The notes under the pieces were generated by a model that saw nothing but the letters and a program-made list of their open reading frames with translations, was not told the DNA's origin and searched no databases. A stretch of DNA of 64,000 nucleotides from Diplonema papillatum (taxonomy: Eukaryota > Euglenozoa > Diplonemea > Diplonemida > Diplonemidae): assembly GCA_030068145.1 (NCBI GenBank), contig JAPJBO010000144.1, positions 248,001-312,000 of the forward strand, read 5' to 3'. Positions 28,251 through 47,438 of this stretch are shown here, piece after piece. Position 1 is the first letter of the stretch; each line of letters opens with the position of its first letter. A program made the position numbers and the translations under genes.

Positions 28251-32878
<4,628 letters not shown>

Positions 32879-34126
32879 GAATGCACTCGGGCGGGTGCCG
32901 CCCGCGCTCATTTCGAAGAGGGCTACCACGCCAGCGCGGCCATGCAGCTACAAAGCGGGTCTTTTACCACTGAACCCATTTACCCGCGTATTTTGGACCA
33001 ATACGTTCTGGGCGTGTTCAGCCCCAAGGTACGTCACGTCTCGACGCTGCGGTAATCACTTGCTGTAATCCTGCGAACACACGCAACTTGGGCCAACTGC
33101 TGCCCACATCGGTAGTCTGCAAGAAACAGGCTAAAAAGGTGGTGCTTCGACCAGGCAGTCTCTGAACAACAGTCAGAGAATGGGAGAAAATCGTGTTCGT
33201 GTGCGTGCCTTTTGCTTGCTCCATTGTCATTGAACTTCGACAGTGAGAAATGTGTTTTCGCATAACATTCACTGCTGGATTTGCGTGCCTTCCCGGTGCG
33301 CGTAGAATTGTCTTGTCTGTGTGGATGAGCTGTTGCATTGAGCCAGCTGCAGTTCCGCTTTTCTACCTGAAAGCGGGTAGTTTCTTGTAGATCTTCATGC
33401 ACAGGGGCTCGTTATGTCAGCTTGACTGATCTCTTGTTCCTGCGATGTGTGAGACGTAGAGCTGTGTTCCCTTTGTTGTTGCTCGCATGCGCTCGTTCCA
33501 CCCTCCGCCCAGTGCTTGTTTTCGTGTATCAAAGCAATGTGTAATTTGTGTACAACTCCCCATTTCTTCTTCCGCTTCCTGCTAGTTCGACCTTCATCAG
33601 TTCTGAGACGGCTGTATCACCCATTCTTGTGGACGAAAGCGCATTTTCATACCAACCGGCCCCCAACCGTCGTCTATGGGAATCAGGTCTTGTTGCAGGG
33701 CTCGTTGAACTAGCAAAGCAGAGCCGCTCTCGTTAAACGTTTCGCCTACAGTGAGTCACACTCGAGCATCCTAGGTTGTCCGCGACACAGACTGAAGGCA
33801 AATACGTTATGCCACAGTGTGCGGCGGAATCGGGAACGGGATGGACATGAAAAATTCACGGCCTTTTCTTGCAGTTAACCTTTCGAGCCGCTTCACCAGC
33901 TTCGGCTGACACCATTGCGCACTTGACCAGGCTAAGAAGACGAACGAAAACATAGACACAAATATAGCTCAAAGCATCTACAGAATAACACGAAAAACAA
34001 ACGCTAGAAAAGCCTCTGGGCAAAACCCCGTTTTCACATTTCTTCTGAAGGTTAAAGCCAGGCGGGCTTTCAAAGGAAAAGGGCGAGCATTGCCCGTTCG
34101 CATTTTGCGAAAGGGTCTTGCCAATC
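32879..34126. other. Intergenic region between the 5-phosphatase and WDR70 genes
   Basis: About 1.25 kb with no coding frame that resembles a protein and no large repeat. It must contain the 3' end of the upstream gene and the promoter of the downstream gene. No specific site is recognised. Confidence 0.5.
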
Positions 34127-35274
34127 ATGGACGACAAAATCGCGAAGGTGATGGGCTTCGCTAACTTTGGGAAGAAAGGCGACGGGGCCAAGAAGCGAGG
34201 CGGCGATTCATTCTCGAAGGGGATGATGGGTGTCATCGGCAAGAAAGCAACTAAAGGCGCAGACGCGAAACTTAGTAAAGAAATCGAGCGTAGAGTCGAA
34301 GTCGCAGAGGAGATGGACAAGCAGGCAGTGAAGAATGCACACCTCACCGAAGAAGCTCTCGGCAGTGAAACAGGCGCGGCTTTGCCGGTCACTCACACCG
34401 CCGTATTGCGCGCGCGCGACAAAGCCGTGACCGCCCTAGCCATCGACGGCACCGGCTCACGGTTAATCATGGGTGGCATGGACTTCAAAGTTTCCATGTT
34501 CCACTTCGCGGGTATGGATAGCCGGCTTCTGCCGTTCAAAGAGCATGAACCGCACGAAGGATACCCAGTGAACGATCTTTCTTACTCGCCATCGAGTGAC
34601 AGGTGTGTCCATGCTTCACTTCCTTCGGAGTAGTTTCGTGGCATGTGGGCAAGCGGCAAGCGATCACTTGAGGGCATACTGCATCGGAACATGTCAAGTG
34701 GTACGCCGAGAGAGACGTTATGACAGGAGTTGATAAACGCAACGAAGCCGATTCGTAAGGGAATCAACTATAAACCAGGCCAAACGGCTCATGAAAACCG
34801 TCTCATCCAACCTTAAAAACGTAGGTACGTCGCTTCCGTGTCGTATCAACGGCCACTCATATTTGACCGTGAAGGGAATGAGAAGGCTGAGTTCGCAAAT
34901 GGTGACATGTATGTCGTCCAGGAGCAGAAGACGAAAGGACACACAGCGAGAACATCGACCGCACGCTGGTTTTCGGACGACTCGCAGACGATCATCACCT
35001 CATCAGCAGACGGAACAGTTCGCCTGTGGGATGTAGAGCGGGTGGACAAGCGGCAGCGTGAGGTTTTTGTACACGGCGCACGAAACACCGGGAAAAAACC
35101 GGCGGCAACCTACGCAGATTTGAACGGTGCGAAGAGTGCCATCATCTCAACGGGAGCAGACGGCCGCGTGTGCGTGTGGCCGCGGGCTGGACCCTACAAC
35201 AAGCCGAGCCTTCAGTTCCAAGCCCACGCCGTCAACACCACCATTACCTCCGCTGCAACCTCAGCAGAAGGAAG
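34127..35274 (+). CDS. WDR70: WDR70 (gastrulation-defective) WD40 protein, exons 1 and 2
   Basis: Exon 1 (34,127-34,602) and exon 2 (34,825-35,274) are joined by a GT-AG intron in phase 2. The start at ATG 34,127 gives MDDKIAKVMGFANFGKK, matching the VMGF.GFGKK N-terminus of WDR70. A charged linker follows, then LPVTHTAVLRARDKAVTALA, DFKVSMFHFAGMDSRLLPF and the GYPVNDLSYSP blade. After the splice come DREGNEKAEFANGDMYV, KGHTA and the WD blade SSADGTVRLWDV, then ADGRVCVWPR. Family members are nuclear WD40-repeat scaffolds linked to DNA repair and ubiquitin signalling. The protein totals 506 residues with exon 3, shorter than animal WDR70 mainly in the N-terminal region. The last codon is split (AG|G) at a donor, GAAG|GTACAC, that begins an intron of about 27.4 kb. 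Confidence 0.9.
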
Positions 35275-35324
35275 GTACACTTTCCTGTCTGGATATCGGG
35301 CGTTTTTCTTTCCTTCAGTGAGTC

Positions 35325-35560
35325 CAGGTACCAGGGAAAGCCTGCTACACGGGAGCCAAGCTTCACGTGTTCGGCGGGCCTACGGGTCAAGTGGCTACCG
35401 ATTTCCCAAACTAAAGCATCAATGCTTGGCGCACCTTGGGGCTTGGCGCTCGCGCTGAACATAAGCTCGTCGAGACGGTCAGCCGCAGGGCAGAGTTGTA
35501 GCACTGTGCTGCCTCCGACTCAAGCTTTTTTTTTGCAAGCTGTGTTTCAGGGGTTTATAA
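35325..35560 (+). mobile_element. SINE-like dispersed repeat, copy c
   Basis: Close match in direct orientation to the reverse complement of the copy at 8,391-8,677, running from CCAGGGAAAGCCTGCTACAC through CGTCGAGACGGTCAGC to CTCAAGC and TTTGCAAGCTGTG. It then loses similarity after a T run. It lies about 50 bp inside the 5' end of WDR70 intron 2. Confidence 0.75.
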
Positions 35561-35608
35561 TTAGACACAGCTGGCCCAAGCACGTTACCGAGAGCAAGCA
35601 TATGGTAC

Positions 35609-37209
35609 GATGCCAAAAGGGGGGGGGGGGGGTTTGGGCGGAAAAATCCCCGCATAGTTCACCAGGGTCTGACGGGTACTGAGGCCCCATACCCTTCCTA
35701 AAACATCATTCTGCGTTCAAATACGCCCTCAGAAGCCTCCGGAGAGCCTTCTATGATGTCCCAAATGCGATTTTGTGGGGTTTTAGGGGGTCCCCCCGTC
35801 TGCTGGCCGTAAACCGCCATAGTAGAAACATATGCAACCTGAAGCTGGGTCGCTTCTCTGTGCAAGATCCCAGCCCAAACACACGTTTTCGGCGTTCTCT
35901 AGCACTCTCCAGGCGCATTCGACCCTCGGGCTTCGTGGTTTCTTTCACTCACAGGTGTTCCGGGACGTGCAAAGATAAGGAGAATGGCCCCCTGCATTGG
36001 GGACAGACCGAACTACGCCCTGCCTGTCTATACAGGCTTTGGGGTCAAATTGCACCGGCTTTGGCGCCACATCCACCGTTTCGGGCTTCGGTTGTGCTGC
36101 TTTGGGGTCCATTAAGAACTCTGGTCTGATTTGCGGGACGCTTTCCTCGGTTTTGGCGCCCACTTTCACTGTTCTAAGGCCTGTTCAGGCTTCTACCTGC
36201 ATCATGTTATGCTATTCTGGTGATTCTGCAAGGCTTGGTGAACGAAGTAGGACAAGCGTTAAGTAACAGGCGATCATCAGCCGTTCTCAATCGTCGTCGA
36301 AGCGGTTGACTACGACGCGTTCACTTCATGATTTTGAAGCAGGCTTCACCGCTTTCAGGGCAGGCTTTCAGAGCTTTCCTGGCAATGTCTTCCCTTCTGG
36401 CACCTTTCTCACCCATGGCTGCAAAGTGCTTCTCGCTGGATGACTTTGCACAGGCGGCACATGACCCGAGGGATGTGTGGCAAGCTCCTGTGCAGTGAGC
36501 TTGGTCAGACAAACTGTGTGGCGCACACACCCGCCATGGTCGGCAGTATCACCTGGGCCAGTTTGAGTCCTGTTCCGAGACCCGCTCACGGTGAAGTGGC
36601 GCCTACTGGGTCGCTTCCTCTCCAGCTTCGGCGCAAAGTCTTCACCACTGGATGCACTTTGAACGGTGAAAGTGGGCACCAAAACCGAGCAAAGCGTCCC
36701 GCAAATCAGACCAGAGTTCTTAGTGGATCCCAAAGCAGCACAAACGAGACCAAAACGGTGCACATGGCGCCAAGGCGGCGCAATTCGACCCCAAAGCCTG
36801 TATAGACAGGCAGGGCGTGGTACGGTCTGTAGGGTCCATTCGCCTTGTTTTTGCACACCCCGGAACACCTGTAAGCGAGATAATTTATGAAGTCCGAGGG
36901 TCGAATGCACCTGGAGAATGATAGAGAACGCCGAAAACGTGTGTTTAGGCCGAGATTTTGCTCCGAGGAGCGACCCAGCATCAGGTTGCATATGTGTCTT
37001 CTATGGCGGTTTACGGCCAGCAGACGGGGGGACCCCCTAAAAACCCACAAAATCGCATTTGGGACATCATAGAAGGCTCTCCGGAGGCTTCTGAGGGCGT
37101 ATTTGAACGCAGAATGATGTTGTAGGAAGGGTATGGGGCCTCAGTACCCGTCAGACCCCGGTGAACTATGCGGGGATTTTTCCGCCCAAACCCCCCCCCC
37201 CCAGGCATC
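35609..37209. mobile_element. Fold-back element with about 560-bp terminal inverted repeats
   Basis: The left arm (35,609 to about 36,175) and right arm (about 36,661-37,209) are inverted copies with scattered differences. Paired landmarks include GATGCC/GGCATC at the ends, long G or C runs just inside, TTTGGGCGG, GGTCTGACGGGTACTGAGGC and CCAAATGCGATTTTGTGGG. Further in are GCCTGTCTATACAGGC and CAGACCAGAGTTCT. The central loop of about 485 bp holds no coding sequence I recognise. This is the structure of a fold-back or non-autonomous inverted-repeat DNA transposon. No target-site duplication is obvious, and arm divergence argues against a cloning artefact. Confidence 0.82.
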
Positions 37210-37384
37210 TTTGTTAAGAACCATCCATCCATCCATCAGCCGGCTGACCCCCCCCCCCCCCCCCCATTTTGCATCCCTTTCCTAGACGACATCTTCCTCG
37301 AAGAAGACTTGATGCTAGCATCAACCATGCATGAGAGGCAGTGCTCTGCCTAAACATTAAACTAAGATTTCCCCCCCCCCCCCC

Positions 37385-39824
37385 CTCGGAAGAGATTTCT
37401 AATACCATCGACGAGGCTTTTGCGGCGGAAGCCGAACGGCTTGGCATACGGGTTGAAGACCTAGTCCTGGTACGACCGAAGAGCCAGCACGGGCCGCAAA
37501 GGAAGAAACGCTGTTTTACTTTCAAGCTATCGACGGAGCTAAGTTCGCAGCAGGCAGCGTATTCCGCGCAGGACCTCAAAGCTCTCCTTGCCTTCTGCCT
37601 AGCGAACACGTATGTACTGGTGAATGGCACCCTCATGCGGCAAATACTGGGCATCCCGATGGGTGCTAACGCCTCCCCGGACATTGCAAATCTCTTCTGC
37701 TACGCAAAGGAGAAAAGGTACATGCTGAAGCTCCTGGCTGAAAAGGAAATCCGACGGGCTACACTCCTCAGCATGACGCGCCGTTTCATCGATGACCTAC
37801 TGTGCTTCGGGACGAAACCCCCGCCCGAATCCATCTACAGCATGCGATACAAGCAGACGAACACATGCGTAGGGGATTCCACCTTCCTTGGCATACGAAT
37901 AAGACACGAAGTCTCCGACGCGTCTGGAAGGAGGTACATGCGACTGTCGGTTCTGGACAAAGCGAAAGCCTACCCATACCGCCCCCTCGCGTACACGTCG
38001 GTCCTCTCGACGGCCCCGTCCAACTTCGGTTCGAGTATCCTCATTGGGGCCCTCGTTCGTAACGGTAGGATCGCCAACAACCTGTATGACTTCAAAACTG
38101 AGATGAACAACACGGTTTTGAAACTCATGCGACGCGGTTACCGTAAGAGCGTACTAAAGAGCGGTTTCCGCAAGTGGCTACTAGATACGTATCCGGAGGC
38201 TAAGTTTGGCGAGCATTGCGGGAAAGTGCGTGCACATTTCTTTTGGCTGATCCACGAGGTGGAACGTGTCCTGTTGATGCTAGAACCGGCCGCGATGGAC
38301 CAGGCGATTGAGCGCCTTCTGGCTGAGAAGCCCTTTGTGAAGTACAGAGGCCACCCCCAACCCGTTCCAGAAGCCGACTCCCCCCCACCGCCATCCCCCG
38401 AGACGTCGGCCCGACAGGCAGACTCGACCACCCCCCCTGAGTCCACACGGAAGGGCCACAAACGAAAGGCTGAAGGGGACGAGCAACGTGACTCGAAGCG
38501 ACGCCGGGCGAATGCCTGTAAACCAGCTCATGCAGTTCCCCCGACATCCACACGCTGCCAATCGGTCATCTGTGCAAGTCCGCCTTTCGTGAAGCATGAT
38601 CCGGCACTGTTTGGTCCTGCCGGCCTCCCAAATCTGGGGAATACGTGCTTCCTTGGTGCTGTGCTGCAACTCCTCATACGGGTTGAACCGATCAGGGAGA
38701 TGTACTGGAGCCTTGCTCAGGACCGCCTCAACTGCTGTGGGTTCCTCCGGGACTTCCTGGCTTACTTTGCCGTATTAGCAAGCTCGCGCGACAGCGGGGA
38801 CCAGCGCAGCCAGGACTGTCGAAGAATGGGTGTGCAGGCCGTCTTAAACATGTTCCCAAACTTCTGCGATGCGCTGCAGCACGATGCACACGAAGCATTG
38901 GTAGCGATCCTGAACGCGACTGAGACGACGCTGGGACCGGACGAAACCGAGGCCCCCTGCCCGGGCTACCAGCTCTTCTTAGCATGCGTGGAGAACCGTT
39001 GGACCAACACGACACGATGTGAGGCATGTGGACGAACTAGTTCCAGCCCTCAGGCGGTACAATGTCTGCAGATCCCCTGCGGAAAAAGGCTGGAAGATTC
39101 TCTCTGCGTACGCGGGTTTGTAAATCCGAAGAGAGGGTGCGACTGCGAAGCTGTAGGGACTGTGGCAGAGGATACGAACCTCCGGCTAACGGCTGATTGT
39201 GTACTGATGCAATTTGGCATCTACACGAGAAATGGCGCTAGACGCCGGAATGACGTTGGGTTACCTCTCCTCTTAGAGCTACCGGGCCACCTACTGCGCC
39301 TCGCTGCAGTCGTGGTGCACTTGGGGGAGAGTACGGCTAGTGGGCACTTCGTCACGTACGTTGCGCAAGACTCAGGTTGGATCCTCTTCGACGATCTACG
39401 GGTCAGCCTCGTCGAGGACATTCCTTGGGACAATGTTTACCTCGCGGCCTTTGTCCGGGTCCCCCAGATTGCCCACAGCGTGACTGTCCGTGCGCCGTCA
39501 CCCTCCATGATACTTCCTGCTCAAGATCAGCTACGCGGCTCGTCTACGCCCCCAAATTCTGCCGGTGTTGTGGTGAACCGACAGTCGGAAGAATCACCTA
39601 ACCTGCTCTACCCTTCTGGTAGTCCATTGCCCTGCCCGCCCTTGCCGGACTCCTTATGCCCGACCCCGCATGGTCAGCTGTTGGAGCAGCAGTGGGCGGG
39701 ATCCCCTGCGCTGCGGTGTCAACACTGCGCCATCGAGTGTACCAAAGATGGGCAGAAGTTTCAGGGTTTGAAGGGACTCCGTGCACATGAGAGACGTTGC
39801 CGCCTCGCGAGTGAAAGACTCTGA
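37385..39824 (+). CDS. Penelope-like reverse transcriptase fused to a ubiquitin-specific protease and zinc finger (5'-truncated)
   Basis: One frame, open from an upstream ATG-like start at 37,341 but with credible homology only after a C run ending near 37,385. Numbering from 37,341, residues 16-320 are reverse transcriptase: SAQDLKALLAFCLANTYV, QILGIPMGAN (101-110), IANLF, RRFIDDLL (147-154), a STAPSNFGSSILIGALVRNG block and LMRRGYRK. This resembles Penelope-like RTs. The motif A aspartate expected just upstream is missing, so the 5' end is truncated. A linker (340-400) with a basic KRKAEGDEQRDSKRRR stretch follows. Residues 428-705 form a ubiquitin-specific protease (C19): Cys box GLPNLGNTCF with Cys436, QHDAHE (514-519), CEAC finger cysteines (560, 563), His box SGHFVTYV with His669 and WILFDD. 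A C2HC finger (RCQHC...HERRC, 792-820) ends the protein. No GIY-YIG domain is present. There is no stop or frameshift between the domains. Confidence 0.85.
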
Positions 39825-40372
39825 ACCGTCGTTTGGGCCTCATCGAATTCCTGACTGTTGGCTGGTCTATTTTACGCTCTGCACCCGTTCACCCTGACTA
39901 ACGGGAAACAACTGGAAGTGTTCTATACGGGTGAATGCGCACTATCATGAGAGGATGAAGGCACGCATATCCCGCCTGGCCCTGTGCTAGGCGTAGTTTT
40001 AGGTTGTACTTATTTCCGAACAACCTACCACGAGCTTATCCACCCACACACCCAACTTTTTCCCCTTTCTTCTAAATTCTTTTTTTTTTTTTTTTTCCCC
40101 CGCTGATGACTAACGGACCGTCGGACCCGTCCCAACGGGGATACTTATGGAAGTTACAATGAAGGCTTAGACCGGTACGGGCTACATGGCAACTCCTGCT
40201 CAACATGTAGAACGTGGGGAGCCCTTGGTCACATTCAATACGGGTGTGATCGTGGTGTCGGTCGCAACAGTCGTTTGGTAGCCAAAGAGAGAGATAGAGA
40301 GAAAAAGAGCGCCAGAGAGAAAAGAAAAGATAACGTTATCTTCCGGAAAAGAAGGGTTACGCGAACCCCCGA
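39825..40372. other. Presumed 3' flank of the RT-protease element and spacer to E1
   Basis: Non-coding sequence with a T run (about 40,080-40,096) and a GA-rich tract (40,287-40,331). A CTGATGA box near 40,104 was inspected as a possible hammerhead ribozyme core but lacks the matching GAAA segment. No recognisable gene. Confidence 0.4.
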
Positions 40373-40877
40373 TATTTGTGTGTGCGAAGGACCTGTTTTG
40401 TATCTTTACATGGCAGGTTCCAACGCTGCCAACTTTCTTTTTTGTACTGACATGTCCAGCGTGGTATGTTGTTCCAAAAAAGAAAAGGCGTCGTTGAGCA
40501 CGTGTACCCCTTTTACGTCGGTAAGTACAAGAGTCGTTGGAAGTTGGAAGAGGAAGATCGCCGAACCACTCTTCGGTCTTTTTTAGTACTGCTGTTTGTT
40601 GGCTCTTGCCGTGCAGTAATTTTAGTCTTGTCATATAACAACTTCGCTCGTTGTGGCCTCTCGGCATTGTTTGCTGGAAAACTCTGTCGGGACTGCCGAA
40701 AGAATCTTCGCAGGCTGGTCCTCAGTTCTTACTGGGGACTGTGAGACATGTTGCAGACGCGTCACATCACTCGGAGAAGCGCTTGTGATAACGGCAATGA
40801 GCTGCCAGTAAGGCGCTACGAGGCCGAGGTCAAGCAAGGGCCAGCACAATGGGTTGCGTCAAAGAAAATCAAAGCTT

Positions 40878-43400
40878 CTAGAGGAGGGACCCAGACCAGC
40901 GTCTTTGGTAGGCCATCCGGGTGAATTTATCGGCCACATTAAGGGATCCAGGGACGTGCATAGCCTCGACAAAATTTCGGTCCAGAAGTTCAACCAGCTC
41001 ATCGAGTAGTTCTTGCGTCTCAGATATCAGGGAATAACCTTTATTCAGGATAGCGACCACAGTTGTGTTGTCCACCTCGATCTGAATCCTGAACCGGATG
41101 CCCGGTACGCAAATTCGTTTTACTGCCTGGACCGCCGCGTATAACTCTTTTATGTTGATGTGGCTTTTAGTATAGCGATTCGGGAAAACACCGTGGGCAA
41201 TGCTCTTTTCGGTAAGAACGTAAGCCCATCCCGACATAGACGCGTCGGAGACAGTCCGAACCGTGCATTCCGGCCGCAGCCACCGTTTCCAGCTGTTCGA
41301 GGCTAGTATGTCGACCTCTCTCGTGAGTATGGAACGGACAGGGTCCGGGATATCGCAGAGGGCGCTCCAAGCGATGTCCGGAGCGGAAACGGAGGACATC
41401 CAGCCCAACAACGTCTTGACGTGGTGGAGAGGCCGAGCCATGACGTGGTACCGCCACATGATACAGCCTGCGACTCGCCAAAAATCTCTCAACGGGGACC
41501 TGCAGCGGAGTACCAATTGGAGGGCTGGCACAACGTTTTGAACCCACGTAGTGCTCAGTCTCCACTTCTTGTCTTGGAGATTCACTTCCATTCCAAGGAG
41601 CGAGGCTTCGGACGTCGGTCGGCCTTCCTCACCAAGTACAATTCCGTATCGGTCGCACAGCGAACACAATCGTCTTTGGGTGTTCCACAACTTTTCCTCG
41701 TGTATGTCTCCGAGTATGAAATTGTCGATCCACTCGATGTGAACCGAAGAAGGAGAACTCTTCGCCGCAAGTCCACCGATAGACTCGGCCACAGCTTGGC
41801 TCGCTTGAGGTGCTGGCGAGTAACCCATCGGTAGCCGAGTTAACCTGCGTTTCGCAGACCCGACTCTAAACGAGAAAAACTTTCTCACTGAGGTCGGCAG
41901 CAAAAACTGGTAAAAAAAACCTTTCGCGTCATTCTCACAAACGAAGTTACATTGCATGAGTTTCAGCAGCATTGAGTTGTACGAGGGAAGGTGGCATGGC
42001 GGAACCGGGTGTCCCGACATTCTCACCGCTTCATTCACCCCCTTGCACGAGAGAATGAACCTGAGTACCCCGGCCTTCTTTTTAGCAACTGTGAAGGCGC
42101 CGTGGAACCAGGATCTTTCCGCCTCCGACCGGGGGACTGCCTCACAGAGACCGATTTCCTCTAGTCTTTTAAGGTGCTGTTTCAACTTAGTGTTAGGGGG
42201 GCCTGGGGCGTTCTTGAACTCGGTCGAAAGGATATCCTCGAGGAAAGCGGGATTTCGAAACCACTTCAAATTGATCTCTAAGGCAGGGAAGTCTCGTAGC
42301 AACAGGTCAGTGTCCACCCACGATTCAGTGATGCTGTCGACGAGGCCCTCAAAGCAGGCCTTTGTGGCACGGGAGCCTCGGGGCATCTCGTGGTCCACCC
42401 ACCTCATGGCGTAATCATATGTATGCAGTTTACTTAAGCTGCGGGCCACATTAGGAGCCCAGAAGGGACGGTCGAAACCTACTGCAGAATTCCGGCCCCC
42501 CGGATTGTTCCGCTCGTCGACTCCCAAGTCTCCATCGGGGTATAGAACCTCACGTTCTTCACGTCTACGTGCCTCCCCATTGCTTGCGCCGCTTGTTCGC
42601 CACCCACCCGGGCGATCTCGGTGAGTGCACTGTGGCGAATCATGTGACTGGTGACCCCAAGATGGCCTCTGAGCCACTTGTTGTAGGCTGCGATGCTTAG
42701 GCCCGGAAGCAGGAGAGTTGATCTCTGTCGTCTCCACCAGCTGATCACGGTCTGGAACACCCATCCCGTCTTCGGTATGAGGATCCCTTGACCTTGGTGC
42801 GTAGGGTCGGTCTTCCCCCCTACGAGAAGTACGAGGAAAAACTCTTGTTTCTCCTTTATGTGTCCGACCTGGAGACGTTCCAGGTCCACAAAACGAGACG
42901 CGAGGCTCCATTGGGCGGCCAACGCCACCTTGTATAACCCTGTGGATTTCGCCAGCAGTCCAAGAACCTGGCTCTTGGAGACCAGTTTCGTCTCCAGGAG
43001 TTCCCTTCTCTCGAGCTCTCTCTCCTTCAAGTGCAGTGCTTTTCGAAAAGCCTTTAGCGGGGGGATATCGGCCATCATCCAGTATGTCACGTACTGGCTG
43101 GCTGAGCCTGGTTGGATTTCCTTCGCATCGATTTTTCGTTGCAGCCACATGAGGAAACCCATCTCTCTTGAGATTTCCGGGTCCAACTGTCGTAGCTGCT
43201 GAATGAATAGCTGAGCCCGGGTCACCACCGACGTCATAGCCGAGGAGGTAGTGTCTTTGTAACACTCGGCCAGCGTTCTCAACGTCTCTTGACGCAGCCC
43301 CTGGACAGCCTCTGGGCTGATCAGGTAGTCGGCCTTCTGGGGGCGGCCCCGACTCCGCTTCAGCGGTTGGAGAGGACTTGGCGCGGGGGGAGTCGTTCAT
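40878..43400 (-). CDS. E1 reverse transcriptase-RNase H
   Basis: An 840-residue open frame starting at an ATG that overlaps the ORF1 stop (ATGA). The first about 300 residues overlap the recombinase gene in another frame and have no domain. The RT domain follows: SWFHGAFTVAKKK, motif A NDAKGFFYQF, motif B RLTRLPMGYSPAPQ and motif C EWIDNFILG, in which the usual second Asp is Asn. The RNase H domain has VSDASMSGWAYV, HINIKELYA, VDNTTVVAIL and PGSLNVADKFTR. It is intact and could be functional. It makes the cDNA of the element in the cytoplasm or nucleus. Whether translation starts at the overlapping ATG or by frameshift is not known. Confidence 0.85.
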   Translation of the reverse strand: MNDSPRAKSSPTAEAESGPPPEGRLPDQPRGCPGAASRDVENAGRVLQRHYLLGYDVGGDPGSAIHSAATTVGPGNLKRDGFPHVAATKNRCEGNPTRLSQPVRDILDDGRYPPAKGFSKSTALEGERAREKGTPGDETGLQEPGSWTAGEIHRVIQGGVGRPMEPRVSFCGPGTSPGRTHKGETRVFPRTSRRGEDRPYAPRSRDPHTEDGMGVPDRDQLVETTEINSPASGPKHRSLQQVAQRPSWGHQSHDSPQCTHRDRPGGWRTSGASNGEARRREEREVLYPDGDLGVDERNNPGGRNSAVGFDRPFWAPNVARSLSKLHTYDYAMRWVDHEMPRGSRATKACFEGLVDSITESWVDTDLLLRDFPALEINLKWFRNPAFLEDILSTEFKNAPGPPNTKLKQHLKRLEEIGLCEAVPRSEAERSWFHGAFTVAKKKAGVLRFILSCKGVNEAVRMSGHPVPPCHLPSYNSMLLKLMQCNFVCENDAKGFFYQFLLPTSVRKFFSFRVGSAKRRLTRLPMGYSPAPQASQAVAESIGGLAAKSSPSSVHIEWIDNFILGDIHEEKLWNTQRRLCSLCDRYGIVLGEEGRPTSEASLLGMEVNLQDKKWRLSTTWVQNVVPALQLVLRCRSPLRDFWRVAGCIMWRYHVMARPLHHVKTLLGWMSSVSAPDIAWSALCDIPDPVRSILTREVDILASNSWKRWLRPECTVRTVSDASMSGWAYVLTEKSIAHGVFPNRYTKSHINIKELYAAVQAVKRICVPGIRFRIQIEVDNTTVVAILNKGYSLISETQELLDELVELLDRNFVEAMHVPGSLNVADKFTRMAYQRRWSGSLL
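42479..43396 (-). CDS. E1 tyrosine recombinase (in frame with ORF1 after a UGA)
   Basis: The 306 codons between the ORF1 TGA (43,397-43,399) and a stop at 42,479-42,481 are in the ORF1 frame. Early residues include RSRGRPQKADYL, an AT-hook-like patch. The catalytic domain shows ASRFVDL (first arginine), a GGKTDP turn, SHMIRHSALTEIAR (HxxR), MGRHVD and VRFYTP with the nucleophilic tyrosine. Such enzymes integrate circular cDNA by site-specific recombination without target duplication. There is no ATG near the start of this frame, so expression by UGA readthrough as an ORF1-YR fusion, or from an internal start, must be assumed. The gene lies wholly inside the RT open frame. Confidence 0.8.
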   Translation of the reverse strand, partial: TTPPAPSPLQPLKRSRGRPQKADYLISPEAVQGLRQETLRTLAECYKDTTSSAMTSVVTRAQLFIQQLRQLDPEISREMGFLMWLQRKIDAKEIQPGSASQYVTYWMMADIPPLKAFRKALHLKERELERRELLETKLVSKSQVLGLLAKSTGLYKVALAAQWSLASRFVDLERLQVGHIKEKQEFFLVLLVGGKTDPTHQGQGILIPKTGWVFQTVISWWRRQRSTLLLPGLSIAAYNKWLRGHLGVTSHMIRHSALTEIARVGGEQAAQAMGRHVDVKNVRFYTPMETWESTSGTIRGAGILQ

Positions 43401-44377
43401 ACGGACTTCCGCCCGTTTCCCGACTTCGAGAGGGTTTCGGTCCTTCTCCTCTTGGAGAATTCACCTTCGGACGAGGCTCTCTTGAGCCCGTCCGTGTTCC
43501 TCCTTCTCCTGTCCTCCTCGTTGGCCACCTCGACAGCTCGCAGGGCGTTTCTTAACACTGTGCGAGAGAACTCAGAGGCATCTACCAACTGCAGCTTGGA
43601 CTCCCAAGCCAGTTGTTGAGGCATACCCTGCAGCTTGCGGATTCTTAGGGCCTCGAGGCGAACCAGCAGTTGATGGGCAACCTGTAGGACTTGTCTCGAG
43701 TCCTTCGGCACAGGGAGGAGTCTGTCCAAGACAGAAAACAGGACACGGGTCTCGTGCACGTACGCAGGTACACTGGCCTTGAAGTCTTCTTCAATGGGCC
43801 CGTAACGGTAGCGCACTTCGGTCATCATCTGACTCTTCTGGTTAGAGGTTGCAACCTTCGGTACCCATGAGTTTGCCATTCGTATGTCAAACTCTCCAAT
43901 TCCCTCTTGGGTTTTGGTTTGGGCAAGAAGATGTTCTACGAGCGCCTTTAAGGGCCCTGGTGGTGTTTGTTCGAGCAATTCGTCGACGTCGACGCCGGCG
44001 ATGTTTGAGCCCGGGTTCGGACGGCTCTCGAGTACTGCGTCCACGCCTTCCATCTCCCGATCGTCCTCCCACTTCTGACCCCGCTGCAGAAGCCACGTAC
44101 AGACCGGGCAGACCCATTCGTCTTCCCCCATTCGGTCCACGAAGCCCTGGGCAGTGCTCTTGCACCCCAGGTTTGCCTTCAGGCAATACGCGATCGCCGT
44201 GAGGCCGCATCTGAAGCAGTGGGTCAGCCCTTCCCCGGCATGGCTCTTTGAGCACATCGGGAAAATGCAAGCGCCGTCTTCCTCGGCTCGGATAATTCCC
44301 GGGGGCACCGACACCTTCGTCTGGATCGAAGACCAGTCGAAAGAGCCCCCGTCGAAGTCGCTTCTCAGAACGGACAT
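43397..44377 (-). CDS. E1 ORF1: gag-position protein with PHD/RING-like zinc finger
   Basis: 327 codons from an ATG about 20 bp inside the A1 repeat (MSVLRSDFDGGSFDW). Residues about 35-95 carry a cysteine/histidine array: CSKSHAG, HCFRCG, YCLKANLGC and EWVCPVCTWLL, resembling a PHD-type finger, which usually binds histone tails. The remainder is mostly helical and charged, ending in a basic KRRRTE segment. The E2 and E3 proteins in this position lack such a finger, so the domain was gained in E1 or lost elsewhere. The stop is a TGA overlapping the ATG of the RT frame (ATGA). Reading beyond this TGA in the same frame enters the recombinase region without another stop. Confidence 0.7.
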   Translation of the reverse strand: MSVLRSDFDGGSFDWSSIQTKVSVPPGIIRAEEDGACIFPMCSKSHAGEGLTHCFRCGLTAIAYCLKANLGCKSTAQGFVDRMGEDEWVCPVCTWLLQRGQKWEDDREMEGVDAVLESRPNPGSNIAGVDVDELLEQTPPGPLKALVEHLLAQTKTQEGIGEFDIRMANSWVPKVATSNQKSQMMTEVRYRYGPIEEDFKASVPAYVHETRVLFSVLDRLLPVPKDSRQVLQVAHQLLVRLEALRIRKLQGMPQQLAWESKLQLVDASEFSRTVLRNALRAVEVANEEDRRRRNTDGLKRASSEGEFSKRRRTETLSKSGNGRKSV

Positions 44378-44503
44378 ATTTTTAGCACGTGTTTTATTTG
44401 TGTGTGCGAAGGACCTGTTTTGTATCTTTACATGGCAGGTTCCAACGCTGCCAACTTTCTTTTTTGTACTGACATGTCCAGCGTGGTATGTTGTTCCAAA
44501 AAA

Positions 44504-45253
44504 AAAAAAAAAAAATAATAACAAAAAAACAAAAAAATACAAACCGACGAAGACCCCAAAAACCTTTTTCAACCTCTCCAATTCCCTTCAAGCTAGACCA
44601 TTATACAACGACCCCCCCCTCAGGCTATTTTCACTGTGGAGGGGGGAGACGCTACCTGTCACACTCGAAGGTGGTCACCACGGTGGGCGGTCAGAAAAAA
44701 AAAATTTTTTTTTTGCCCCAAATACCCCAAATACCACACTTTGGAAAATTTTTGTGGGCCCACTTTTGGCAGGGAATTTTGACCATTTCACCTTAGAGAA
44801 TTTGACCACCCAGCCTCCAAGGCAACTGCACTGTAGAGGGGGGGGGGGGGGGGGGGGGGTCTGGTTTATCCGGCCATCCGGCCAAAGTGGCTGATCCTTA
44901 ACAAGAGCGCTGCCCCCCCCCCATAGATGGAAACATAAAACCCAAAACCCAAGGCCACCAGACACCTAGTATTTGGTGGCCAGCCACTACTGGGCGGCTG
45001 GTCCTTTTTCCCGATCGAATATACACACCTCCGAATCTAAACGGGCGAAGCCCGGCTTTTCTTTGCACCAATCCTTCCAAAAAAGAGGGGGGGATCCGGG
45101 GGGCACCGCCCCCCGGCCGAACGGTACGGTACAGCGACACAGATCGTGCGGTGAAAAACCTCAAGCTTCACGGATTTCCAAGGGAATCTGTGAAGCTTTA
45201 CGAACCTTCTCACACTCGTATTTCTTAGTTTCGAGTCCCCCACCAACGAGACC
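44504..45253. other. Spacer with a G/C-hairpin dispersed repeat
   Basis: No coding sequence. It contains a G run (44,838-44,859), the phrase GGAAACATAAAACCCAAAAC (about 44,929) and, at about 45,085-45,135, a G/C palindrome-like block (GGATCCGGGGGGCACCGCCC) followed by ACGGTACGGTAC. The same phrase and block recur, the block inverted, at 60,885-61,050, indicating a short dispersed element. Confidence 0.6.
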
Positions 45254-47438
45254 TGTAACCGAGTTTAACTAGTGCGTACCCAGTCTGTAACCACTGTAAC
45301 CACTTGTAACCGGGTGTAACCAGTCTGTAACCGGGATGTAACCGCTGTAACCACTTGTAACCAGCATGTAACCGCTGTAACCGAGTGTAACCAGTCTGTA
45401 ACCGGGATGTAACCGCTGTAACCACTTGTAACCAGCATGTAACCGCTGTAACCGAGTGTAACCAGTCTGTAACCGGGATGTAACCGCTGTAACCACTTGT
45501 AACCAGCATGTAACCACTGTAACCGAGTGTAACCAGTCTGTAACCGGGATGTAACCGCTGTAACCACTTGTAACCAGCATGTAACCACTGTAACCGAGTG
45601 TAACCAGTCTGTAACCGGGATGTAACCGCTGTAACCACTTGTAACCAGCATGTAACCACTGTAACCGAGTGTAACCAGTCTGTAACCGGGATGTAACCGC
45701 TGTAACCACTTGTAACCAGCATGTAACCACTGTAACCGAGTGTAACCAGTCTGTAACCGGGATGTAACCGCTGTAACCACTTGTAACCAGCATGTAACCA
45801 CTGTAACCGAGTGTAACCAGTCTGTAACCGGGATGTAACCGCTGTAACCACTTGTAACCAGCATGTAACCACTGTAACCGAGTGTAACCAGTCTGTAACC
45901 GGGATGTAACCGCTGTAACCACTTGTAACCAGCATGTAACCACTGTAACCGAGTGTAACCAGTCTGTAACCGGGATGTAACCGCTGTAACCACTTGTAAC
46001 CAGCATGTAACCACTGTAACCGAGTGTAACCAGTCTGTAACCGGGATGTAACCGCTGTAACCACTTGTAACCAGCATGTAACCACTGTAACCGAGTGTAA
46101 CCAGTCTGTAACCGGGATGTAACCGCTGTAACCACTTGTAACCAGCATGTAACCACTGTAACCGAGTGTAACCAGTCTGTAACCGGGATGTAACCGCTGT
46201 AACCACTTGTAACCAGCATGTAACCACTGTAACCGAGTGTAACCAGTCTGTAACCGGGATGTAACCGCTGTAACCACTTGTAACCAGCATGTAACCACTG
46301 TAACCGAGTGTAACCAGTCTGTAACCGGGATGTAACCGCTGTAACCACTTGTAACCAGCATGTAACCACTGTAACCGAGTGTAACCAGTCTGTAACCGGG
46401 ATGTAACCGCTGTAACCACTTGTAACCAGCATGTAACCACTGTAACCAGTCTGTAACCGTGTAACCAGTCTGTAACCGGGATGTAACCGCTGTAACCACT
46501 TGTAACCAGCATGTAACCACTGTAACCGGGTGTAACCGCTGTAACCACTTGTAACCAGCATGTAACCACTGTAACCGAGTGTAACCAGTCTGTAACCGGG
46601 ATGTAACCGCTGTAACCACTTGTAACCAGCATGTAACCACTGTAACCGAGTGTAACCAGTCTGTAACCGGGATGTAACCGCTGTAACCACTTGTAACCAG
46701 CATGTAACCACTGTAACCGAGTGTAACCAGTCTGTAACCGGGATGTAACCGCTGTAACCACTTGTAACCAGCATGTAACCACTGTAACCGAGTGTAACCA
46801 GTCTGTAACCGGGATGTAACCGCTGTAACCACTTGTAACCAGCATGTAACCACTGTAACCGAGTGTAACCAGTCTGTAACCATGTAACCATGTAACCGCT
46901 GTAACCGAGTGTAACCAGTCTGTAACCGGGATGTAACCGCTGTAACCACTTGTAACCAGCATGTAACCACTGTAACCGAGTGTAACCAGTCTGTAACCGG
47001 GATGTAACCGCTGTAACCACTTGTAACCAGCATGTAACCACTGTAACCGAGTGTAACCAGTCTGTAACCGGGATGTAACCGCTGTAACCACTTGTAACCA
47101 GCATGTAACCACTGTAACCGAGTGTAACCAGTCTGTAACCGGGATGTAACCGCTGTAACCACTTGTAACCAGCATGTAACCACTGTAACCGAGTGTAACC
47201 AGTCTGTAACCGGGATGTAACCGCTGTAACCACTTGTAACCAGCATGTAACCACTGTAACCGAGTGTAACCAGTCTGTAACCGGGATGTAACCGCTGTAA
47301 CCACTTGTAACCAGCATGTAACCACTGTAACCGAGTGTAACCAGTCTGTAACCGGGATGTAACCGCTGTAACCACTTGTAACCGGGATGTAACCACTGTA
47401 ACCACTTGTAACCACTTGTAACCAGCATGTAACCACTG
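45254..47438. repeat. 71-bp higher-order minisatellite of GTAACC boxes, array 1
   Basis: The period is 71 bp (for example 45,507 to 45,578). Each unit holds seven GTAACC boxes separated by spacers ACT, GAGT, AGTCT, GGGAT, GCT, ACTT and AGCAT. Most units are identical; irregular units lie near 46,441-46,545 and 46,880-46,900. Because 71 is not a multiple of three and the minus strand has no stop, all three minus frames are open for over 700 codons; I treat these as non-coding. The array ends abruptly at the boundary of element E2. Confidence 0.97.

Follow-up and report, generated by a model that had tools for sequence, protein, structure and literature searches.

A 64,000-nucleotide stretch of the genome of Diplonema papillatum, a marine protist (contig JAPJBO010000144.1, positions 248,001 to 312,000; hereafter the window) raises the question of why a reverse transcriptase (RT) and a ubiquitin-specific protease (USP) should be read from one frame. 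The initial annotation had described an uninterrupted frame joining a Penelope-like RT to a USP and a C2HC finger. The window does contain, on the forward strand, an open frame without a stop at 37335-39824 (829 codons), whose element part begins only at 37386, and in it RT and USP lie in one frame at 37386-39824. Pfam gives UCH over residues 430-695 of this frame (E 1e-20; score 74.9 bits, cut-off 23.9), the catalytic residues are present, and all of the motifs named earlier were located: GIPMG (37650-37664), FIDD (37785-37796), the USP Cys box (38622-38651), QHDAHE (38877-38894), the USP His box (39339-39362) and the terminal Asp motif, LFDD (39384-39395). The finger, seen by eye at 39711-39800 and without a Pfam match, follows the USP and precedes the TGA stop of the polyprotein at 39822-39824. 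Of the two Pfam families proposed for the frame, UCH was borne out and RVT_1 was not, the latter giving no match to the truncated frame at E ≤ 0.1. We conclude that a mobile RT-USP family gave rise to the window copy, which is truncated and interrupted. We consider it highly probable that this is a recently mobile family of Penelope-like elements (PLEs) that encodes a single GIY-YIG/CxC/RT/linker/USP/C2HC polyprotein and whose USP probably aids retrotransposition.

The family comprises three subfamilies, A, B and C, with single frames of 1485-1499 codons; subfamily A is the window copy's own. The polyprotein runs in the order N-terminal GIY-YIG, CPC (Cys-x-Cys), RT, linker, USP and C2HC. Two Diplonema proteins, P0024 (1499 aa) and P0025 (1485 aa), each annotated as a putative ubiquitin carboxyl-terminal hydrolase 16, have UCH (PF00443; E 1.3e-20 and 5.1e-23, respectively) near the C-terminus, GIY-YIG near the N-terminus and the RT motifs between. 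These two "ubiquitin carboxyl-terminal hydrolase 16" proteins of D. papillatum are transposon proteins. Their GIY-YIG matches (PF01541, at about residues 86-130) score 22.6 and 23.0 against a cut-off of 22.6, and the match in a third protein, P0001, stays below it at 20.9; CPC lies at about residues 388-391. Twenty places were fetched with flanks and gave 19 full-length frames (15 B and 4 A), to which two C copies, L031 and L032, were added to make 21; L024, which is without its first codons, does not enter the counts of motifs and distances, and the full-length B copies L002, L003 and L004 were not used in the 21-copy counts. The GIY, CPC, RT and USP patterns were found in all 21 copies (4 A, 15 B, 2 C), as were the Cys, His and Asp boxes of the USP. 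The earlier statement that GIY-YIG is absent thus has to be corrected: the domain is N-terminal in each of the 21 full-length copies, and it is missing from the window copy because that copy has lost its 5' part.

The genome searches covered the D. papillatum assembly of 271 Mb. With P0024 as query there were at least 34 matches (31 scored of 1336 candidates), and full-length, stop-free frames numbered at least 18 at about 100% identity (subfamily B) and at least 6 at 86% (subfamily A). With P0025 there were at least 31 matches (31 scored of 1258 candidates), comprising at least 14 full-length, stop-free copies of subfamily C, at least 13 partial C copies and at least 4 of subfamily A. Recurrence of the RT-USP linkage, which had been proposed as a check, was therefore found in 24 of the 34 and 14 of the 31 matches listed, at least 38 full-length, stop-free frames together, and because the linkage recurs at many places the frame in the window is not an accidental fusion. 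Among the matches listed, all 13 partial C copies reach the last residue, only the 5' side being missing, and one of them has one stop. When 601 bases of window USP DNA were used as query, at least 41 matches were obtained (40 scored of 216 candidates), with at least 22 places at 99% or more (the window included, two partial), at least 18 further places at 82-84% and one 81-base piece. Mean pairwise distances between coding sequences were 0.00057 among the 15 copies of B, 0.00026 among the four of A and 0.00022 for the one pair of C, and distances this small within subfamilies indicate recent spread.

The identity of the USP domain is supported by several comparisons. A profile of four element USPs matched USP12 (E 4.4e-21), USP46 (1.3e-17) and USP36 (5.6e-17) among solved structures in the PDB over nearly the full domain. 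The Asn, Cys, His and Asp that we take to be the oxyanion and catalytic residues are invariant in six aligned rows, namely the window copy, P0024, P0025, P0029 (a protein from another source) and two animal USP3-like proteins; the window USP is 27-28% identical to that of P0029 and 25-26% identical to the animal proteins. Ratios of nonsynonymous to synonymous substitution (dN/dS) were calculated by the Nei-Gojobori method for one representative per subfamily, with 95% bootstrap limits. For the USP they were 0.23 (0.16-0.32) for A-B, 0.16 (0.10-0.23) for B-C and 0.19 (0.11-0.30) for A-C; the values involving C are rough because dS exceeds 1, and A-B (dS 0.57) is the sound one. The RT gave 0.07-0.09, the GIY-YIG part 0.14-0.22 and the linker 0.36 and 0.63, the A-C comparison of the linker being saturated and giving no value. 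Given USP ratios of 0.16-0.23, the USP has been kept by purifying selection. Such selection shows that the USP is maintained, not what its substrate is.

As to where the domain came from, PF00443 was run over the genome and gave at least 149 matches scored of 935 candidates. By hand count of rows, not genes, 112 of the 149 are element-shaped and 37 host-like; subfamily A, to which the window copy with its 74.9 bits belongs, was not recognized among them. A tree was built from 17 Diplonema USP domains, chosen from the first 34 UCH rows, and the two animal USP3-like proteins. In it the USPs of A, B and C form one clade (support 97/94), the sister of which (100/98) is the USP of a 702-aa frame at G000:C9:544600-547640 (L050/L044/L051); P0029 joins with weak support (62/79), at a point where long branches meet. 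The C9 frame carries a metallo-beta-lactamase domain (PF00753, 1.1e-8) and the USP, and neither RT nor C2HC occurs in its 702 aa. Its USP, which shares 51-58% identity with the P0024 and P0025 USPs, is the closest non-element USP found, and as the sister of the A/B/C clade it is a candidate donor, or else it may be a domesticated copy taken from an element. When this USP (C9:546040) was used to search the genome, at least 144 matches of 591 candidates were found: itself at 100%, at one place, and 143 at 52-61%. None of the 143 has a stop in the matched part, and of their frames 95 have at least 740 codons and 39 at least 1480.

Identification of the RT rests on its homologues, that is, on weak RVT_1 matches, a weak group II RT match of P0029 and invariant motifs. 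P0021 scored 29.0 bits with RVT_1 against a cut-off of 29.6, and NCBIfam gave weak matches only, among them the group II RT match to P0029. In an alignment of 11 proteins, the motifs DF..Y (motif A), GIPMG and R.IDD are invariant. In an RT tree, for which P0004, P0005, P0024 and P0025 were flagged for odd composition, subfamilies A, B and C group with P0004, also of Diplonema, and are then joined by P0002, P0029 and P0005, the last on a long branch; these forks have support of at least 99/98. The elements stand apart from 17 other proteins, at least four of them with an N-terminal GIY-YIG, which presumably are Naiads. By eye, the GIY region of P0024 and P0025 has no Cys pair, unlike that of P0016, P0020, P0021 and P0031. 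The endonuclease of Chlamys elements, in the account of Craig and colleagues, reportedly has no CCHH. Two of the grouped proteins are informative for the history of the USP. P0029 (772 aa, from a contig of 6150 bases) has RT and then UCH (3.6e-15), the same order as in Diplonema, and across 496 columns covering the RT it shares 36% identity with P0025. P0002 (521 aa, from a contig of 2518 bases) has RT and a C2HC-like terminal finger and no USP. Viral contigs scanned with P0025 gave no match.

The ends of the copies bear marks of retrotransposition. For A and B, 21 3' ends were listed, the window's included, two of which, both at contig C230, have C6 at a tandem junction. Among the 19 non-tandem ends, 17, again including the window's, have CAACG(A/G) followed by eight or more C, and one of these 17, L027, continues into the start of another element; no CAACG(A/G) end was seen for L024 in this listing. 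Both subfamily C ends have poly-C, CAACGA being followed by C10 in L031 and C12 in L032. Of 15 5'-truncation junctions listed, eight abut poly-C; for comparison, C8 starts at 114 of the 64,000 positions of the window. At C230, C1928 and C257 head-to-tail tandem junctions were found in which the end of one unit joins the start of the next via CAACGACCCCCCATTCCAGCAGGG; at C230 the two element frames are 7.9 kb apart, and the full unit of L027 has about 2.85 kb ahead of the ATG. Across the copies examined, graded 5' truncation is combined with a common 3' end. The poly-C ends, 5' truncations and tandems fit target-primed reverse transcription into poly-C tracts, in which the priming step would be as outlined below. 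Searches of L016, L027, L029 and L031 for hammerhead and other Rfam families gave none at E ≤ 1, a search that could miss a minimal hammerhead; CUGANGA cores do occur. In the window, Rfam was run on positions 30000-47000 and gave only two matches, to animal microRNA and human long noncoding RNA families, which lay under the gathering score and were taken as chance.

The flanks afford a separate observation. L014, L021, L031 and the window copy have the same 3' flank, CAGGCTATTTTCACTGTGG, beyond the poly-C, as if a poly-C tract within a dispersed host repeat were a favored target.

Several results weigh against the interpretation given at the outset. The USP ratios exceed those of the RT by a factor of about 2 to 3.5, and because they are higher the constraint on the USP is the weaker of the two: it is looser than that on the RT and about as tight as that on the endonuclease. 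AlphaFold modeled the element USP poorly (mean predicted local distance difference test score 50.9); a Foldseek search with this model returned USP entries in all of the 50 best rows, headed by USP1 (E 5.2e-10, TM 0.41), and because the model is poor these matches add little. RVT_1 matches are weak throughout the lineage, and among solved chains a profile of the 11 PLE-like proteins had no match at E ≤ 0.01. The RT tree, with 24 rows, was rooted at its midpoint for drawing only and contains no named PLE, so that the branch name Chlamys rests on features reported for that group. If midpoint rooting holds, the USP-less P0002 lies between USP carriers, which suggests that the USP may be dispensable to an element of this lineage, and that the USP was lost in P0002 or taken up twice; since P0029 and P0002 both come from short contigs, the reading of loss versus double capture is limited. 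Among the ends, two of the 19, L011 (C5) and L013 (C6), have no C8 run, and seven of the 15 truncation junctions do not abut poly-C.

With these points included, we think it probable that the element USP is an active deubiquitinase which aids retrotransposition. The GIY-YIG domain would nick poly-C/poly-G tracts, and the C-rich 3' end of the RNA would pair with the nicked G-strand and prime reverse transcription. The USP, delivered together with the RT, might then strip ubiquitin from the RT complex, which would escape degradation; alternatively, it might deubiquitinate chromatin or repair proteins where the element inserts, and so allow integration to be completed. We rate these two classes of target, the RT complex and the insertion-site proteins, as roughly equal in likelihood. 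A bolder proposal, possible and in our view rather doubtful, is that deubiquitination is integral to the life cycle of the element, the USP having been captured more than once (in A/B/C and in P0029) and acting at poly-C/poly-G sites. By analogy with USP1 or USP12/46, its substrates in that case may be ubiquitinated repair factors or histones, whose deubiquitination would let target-primed integration run to its end.

Other explanations of the fused frame were considered. The USP might be a passenger without a role, a piece of a host gene acquired through 3' transduction or template switching. Its position downstream of the RT beside a fast-evolving linker, and the existence of a relative, P0002, that manages without it, would accord with this. 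The low dN/dS across three subfamilies (upper limits 0.23-0.32), the retention of the catalytic boxes in 21 of 21 copies and the same domain order in P0029, from another source, make the passenger explanation improbable. We give about the same low, perhaps slightly lower, credence to the USP acting in processing, in the fashion of a retroviral protease, by cleaving the polyprotein or a ubiquitin-like part attached to it. A long multi-enzyme polyprotein is a usual setting for self-processing, but USPs cut after ubiquitin-like tails, and Pfam, which was the sole check for processing sites, gives no ubiquitin-like domain in P0024 or P0025; on that ground the candidate was rejected.

Could the RT and USP instead work together in a cell, as a domesticated host gene family? 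Their long intact frames and the annotation as putative ubiquitin carboxyl-terminal hydrolase 16 are what such a family might show, but near-identical copies at dispersed places, together with the 5' truncations, the tandems and the differing flanks, mark a mobile element, and the C9 frame with metallo-beta-lactamase and USP, seen once, fits the part of a host gene better. We regard domestication as very unlikely. Least credible of all is a fusion confined to the window locus, whether an accident beside a host USP gene or an artefact of the gene model or the assembly. The gene model DIPPA_14062, by skipping most of the USP, could suggest an intron there. Against this stand the full-length, stop-free frames, at least 38 in number and with 3' flanks that differ in most of the copies examined, the recurrence of the window USP DNA at 99% or more at 22 or more places, the window's among them, and the two annotated proteins that join the parts; the many genomic copies rule out a one-off fusion as well as an assembly or gene-model artefact. 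The reading we prefer remains that of a recently mobile PLE family with a probably working USP.

The window copy itself can be described in detail against its relatives. It occupies 37386-40372 on the forward strand and is a 5'-truncated copy of subfamily A, colinear by blastn with the intact copies L025-L028 at 99.8-99.9% identity. At its 5' truncation junction, read from the sequence, are 15 bases of poly-C (37371-37385), presumably the target-site poly-C. Only the C-terminal part of the RT (37386-38350, its end approximate) is left; motif A and everything N-terminal of it are gone, and for that reason the copy should not make a working RT. A Pro/Ser-rich linker follows at about 38351-38621, among the fastest-evolving parts by dN/dS, with a basic stretch at 38451-38507 that by eye resembles a nuclear localization signal. 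The USP (Peptidase C19/UCH) extends over 38622-39419, as identified by PF00443, the profile against PDB and the alignments. The 3' region is interrupted by a nested DIRS-like element on the reverse strand (40373-44508, its 3' limit uncertain by about 10 nt). Beyond this insert blastn and a motif search found the remaining 3' tail of the copy, the last ~110 bases of the element, at 44498-44611 on the forward strand; the tail ends in CATTATACAACGA and is followed by C8 at 44612-44619.

The best protein match of the window frame is DIPPA_14062 (P0001) of D. papillatum, and a search with that protein led to P0024 and P0025. Because the window lacks the first 685 residues of DIPPA_14062, this protein was taken to come from another copy, and we read the gap in its USP as a putative gene-model error. 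Three further annotated host proteins of Diplonema, P0026, P0028 and P0030 (named ribosomal RNA-processing protein 12, magnesium/proton exchanger and hypothetical protein), carry pieces of the RT-USP element, and they look like gene models running into it. In addition, on G000:C97, at about 318-322 kb and 380-384 kb, there are USP pairs, A-like and C-like by identity, within about 3.5 kb. At both places, each member of the pair is reported in an open frame of 1459 codons; possibly one insertion lies inside another, within a duplicated stretch.

The nested DIRS-like insert is about 4.1 kb long and has 114-nt direct repeats at 40373-40486 and 44395-44508. Its minus-strand frames, one RT-like (40878-43460) and one tyrosine-recombinase-like (42479-43396), both score below the Pfam cut-offs. 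A 601-base query from the insert was found at 100% at 19 or more places, the window included, among at least 38 matches. Just upstream of the RT-USP copy is an inverted repeat at 35621-37202, with arms of 371, 91 and 59 nt that are 92% complementary. Downstream, from 45163-46000 on, units of about 71 nt, up to 99% alike, are repeated in direct tandem.

How does the element compare with known systems? Chlamys and Naiad PLEs, again in the account of Craig and colleagues, are said to have an N-terminal endonuclease, a CxC motif, simple-repeat targets and no hammerhead. The Diplonema element is like them in its N-terminal GIY-YIG, the CxC ahead of the RT, the GIPMG and FIDD motifs, the tandems, the insertion into a simple repeat and the lack of a hammerhead match here. 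It differs from them in having a complete USP between the RT and the C2HC, in its poly-C target and in its euglenozoan host. To our knowledge, Euglenozoa lie outside the groups reported to have PLEs with an N-terminal endonuclease, and we know of no report of permuted Penelope-like elements from Euglenozoa. Chlamys is a recognized PLE group, and excerpts of a recent paper place it also in brown algae (Ectocarpus; PMC12477816). With canonical Penelope the Diplonema element shares RT, GIY-YIG, tandem or partial-tandem copies and 5' truncation, but in canonical Penelope, as described in excerpts of PMC11167929 and PMC3846280, the endonuclease is C-terminal, and these excerpts mention no deubiquitinase. 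The Penelope in the excerpted part of PMC11167929 also has a hammerhead ribozyme, and none was matched in the Diplonema element.

Proteases directed at ubiquitin or SUMO have been joined to mobile elements before. According to excerpts of PMC2836005, the Trichomonas protein XP_001314237.1 combines transposase_11 with Peptidase C19, and thus likewise joins C19 to a mobile-element enzyme, but there the enzyme is a DNA transposase, from another class of element, and not an RT. Ginger1 (OTU or Ulp1; PMC2836005) and Utopia/NeSL (Ulp1; PMC4640811) also carry ubiquitin/SUMO-directed cysteine proteases in the portions of those papers available; these have OTU or Ulp1 folds and reside in DNA transposons or non-LTR elements, whereas the Diplonema element is a PLE with a USP. 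The authors of PMC2836005 suggest, in the excerpted text, that the OTU and Ulp1 proteases of transposons may act on DNA-repair factors. The C9 frame shares a related USP with the element, and differs by its metallo-beta-lactamase fold, the lack of RT and its occurrence at a single place. The initial annotation knew of no RT-USP polyprotein. A full-text literature search, for which the sources came as excerpts and in which the key PLE survey, Craig et al. 2021, lay outside the scope, returned no RT-USP retroelement among the matches listed, so that this statement is not contradicted, but it must be qualified by the recorded transposase-C19 fusion (PMC2836005). Nor was Penelope in diplonemids or Euglenozoa found among the matches listed, and the excerpts from the main text of the D. 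papillatum genome paper (PMC10161547) contain no mention of Penelope or ubiquitin.

What is new here is a permuted Penelope-like element that retains a USP as one of its parts. The finding extends permuted Penelope-like elements to Euglenozoa. OTU and Ulp1 proteases are known in DNA transposons and a few retrotransposons, where their role is still a guess, and the USP is a further fold. Here a free-living protist has a USP with intact catalytic residues and measured constraint in a retroelement that is young and present in many copies, and the question of whether mobile elements depend on editing host ubiquitin signals thereby becomes testable.

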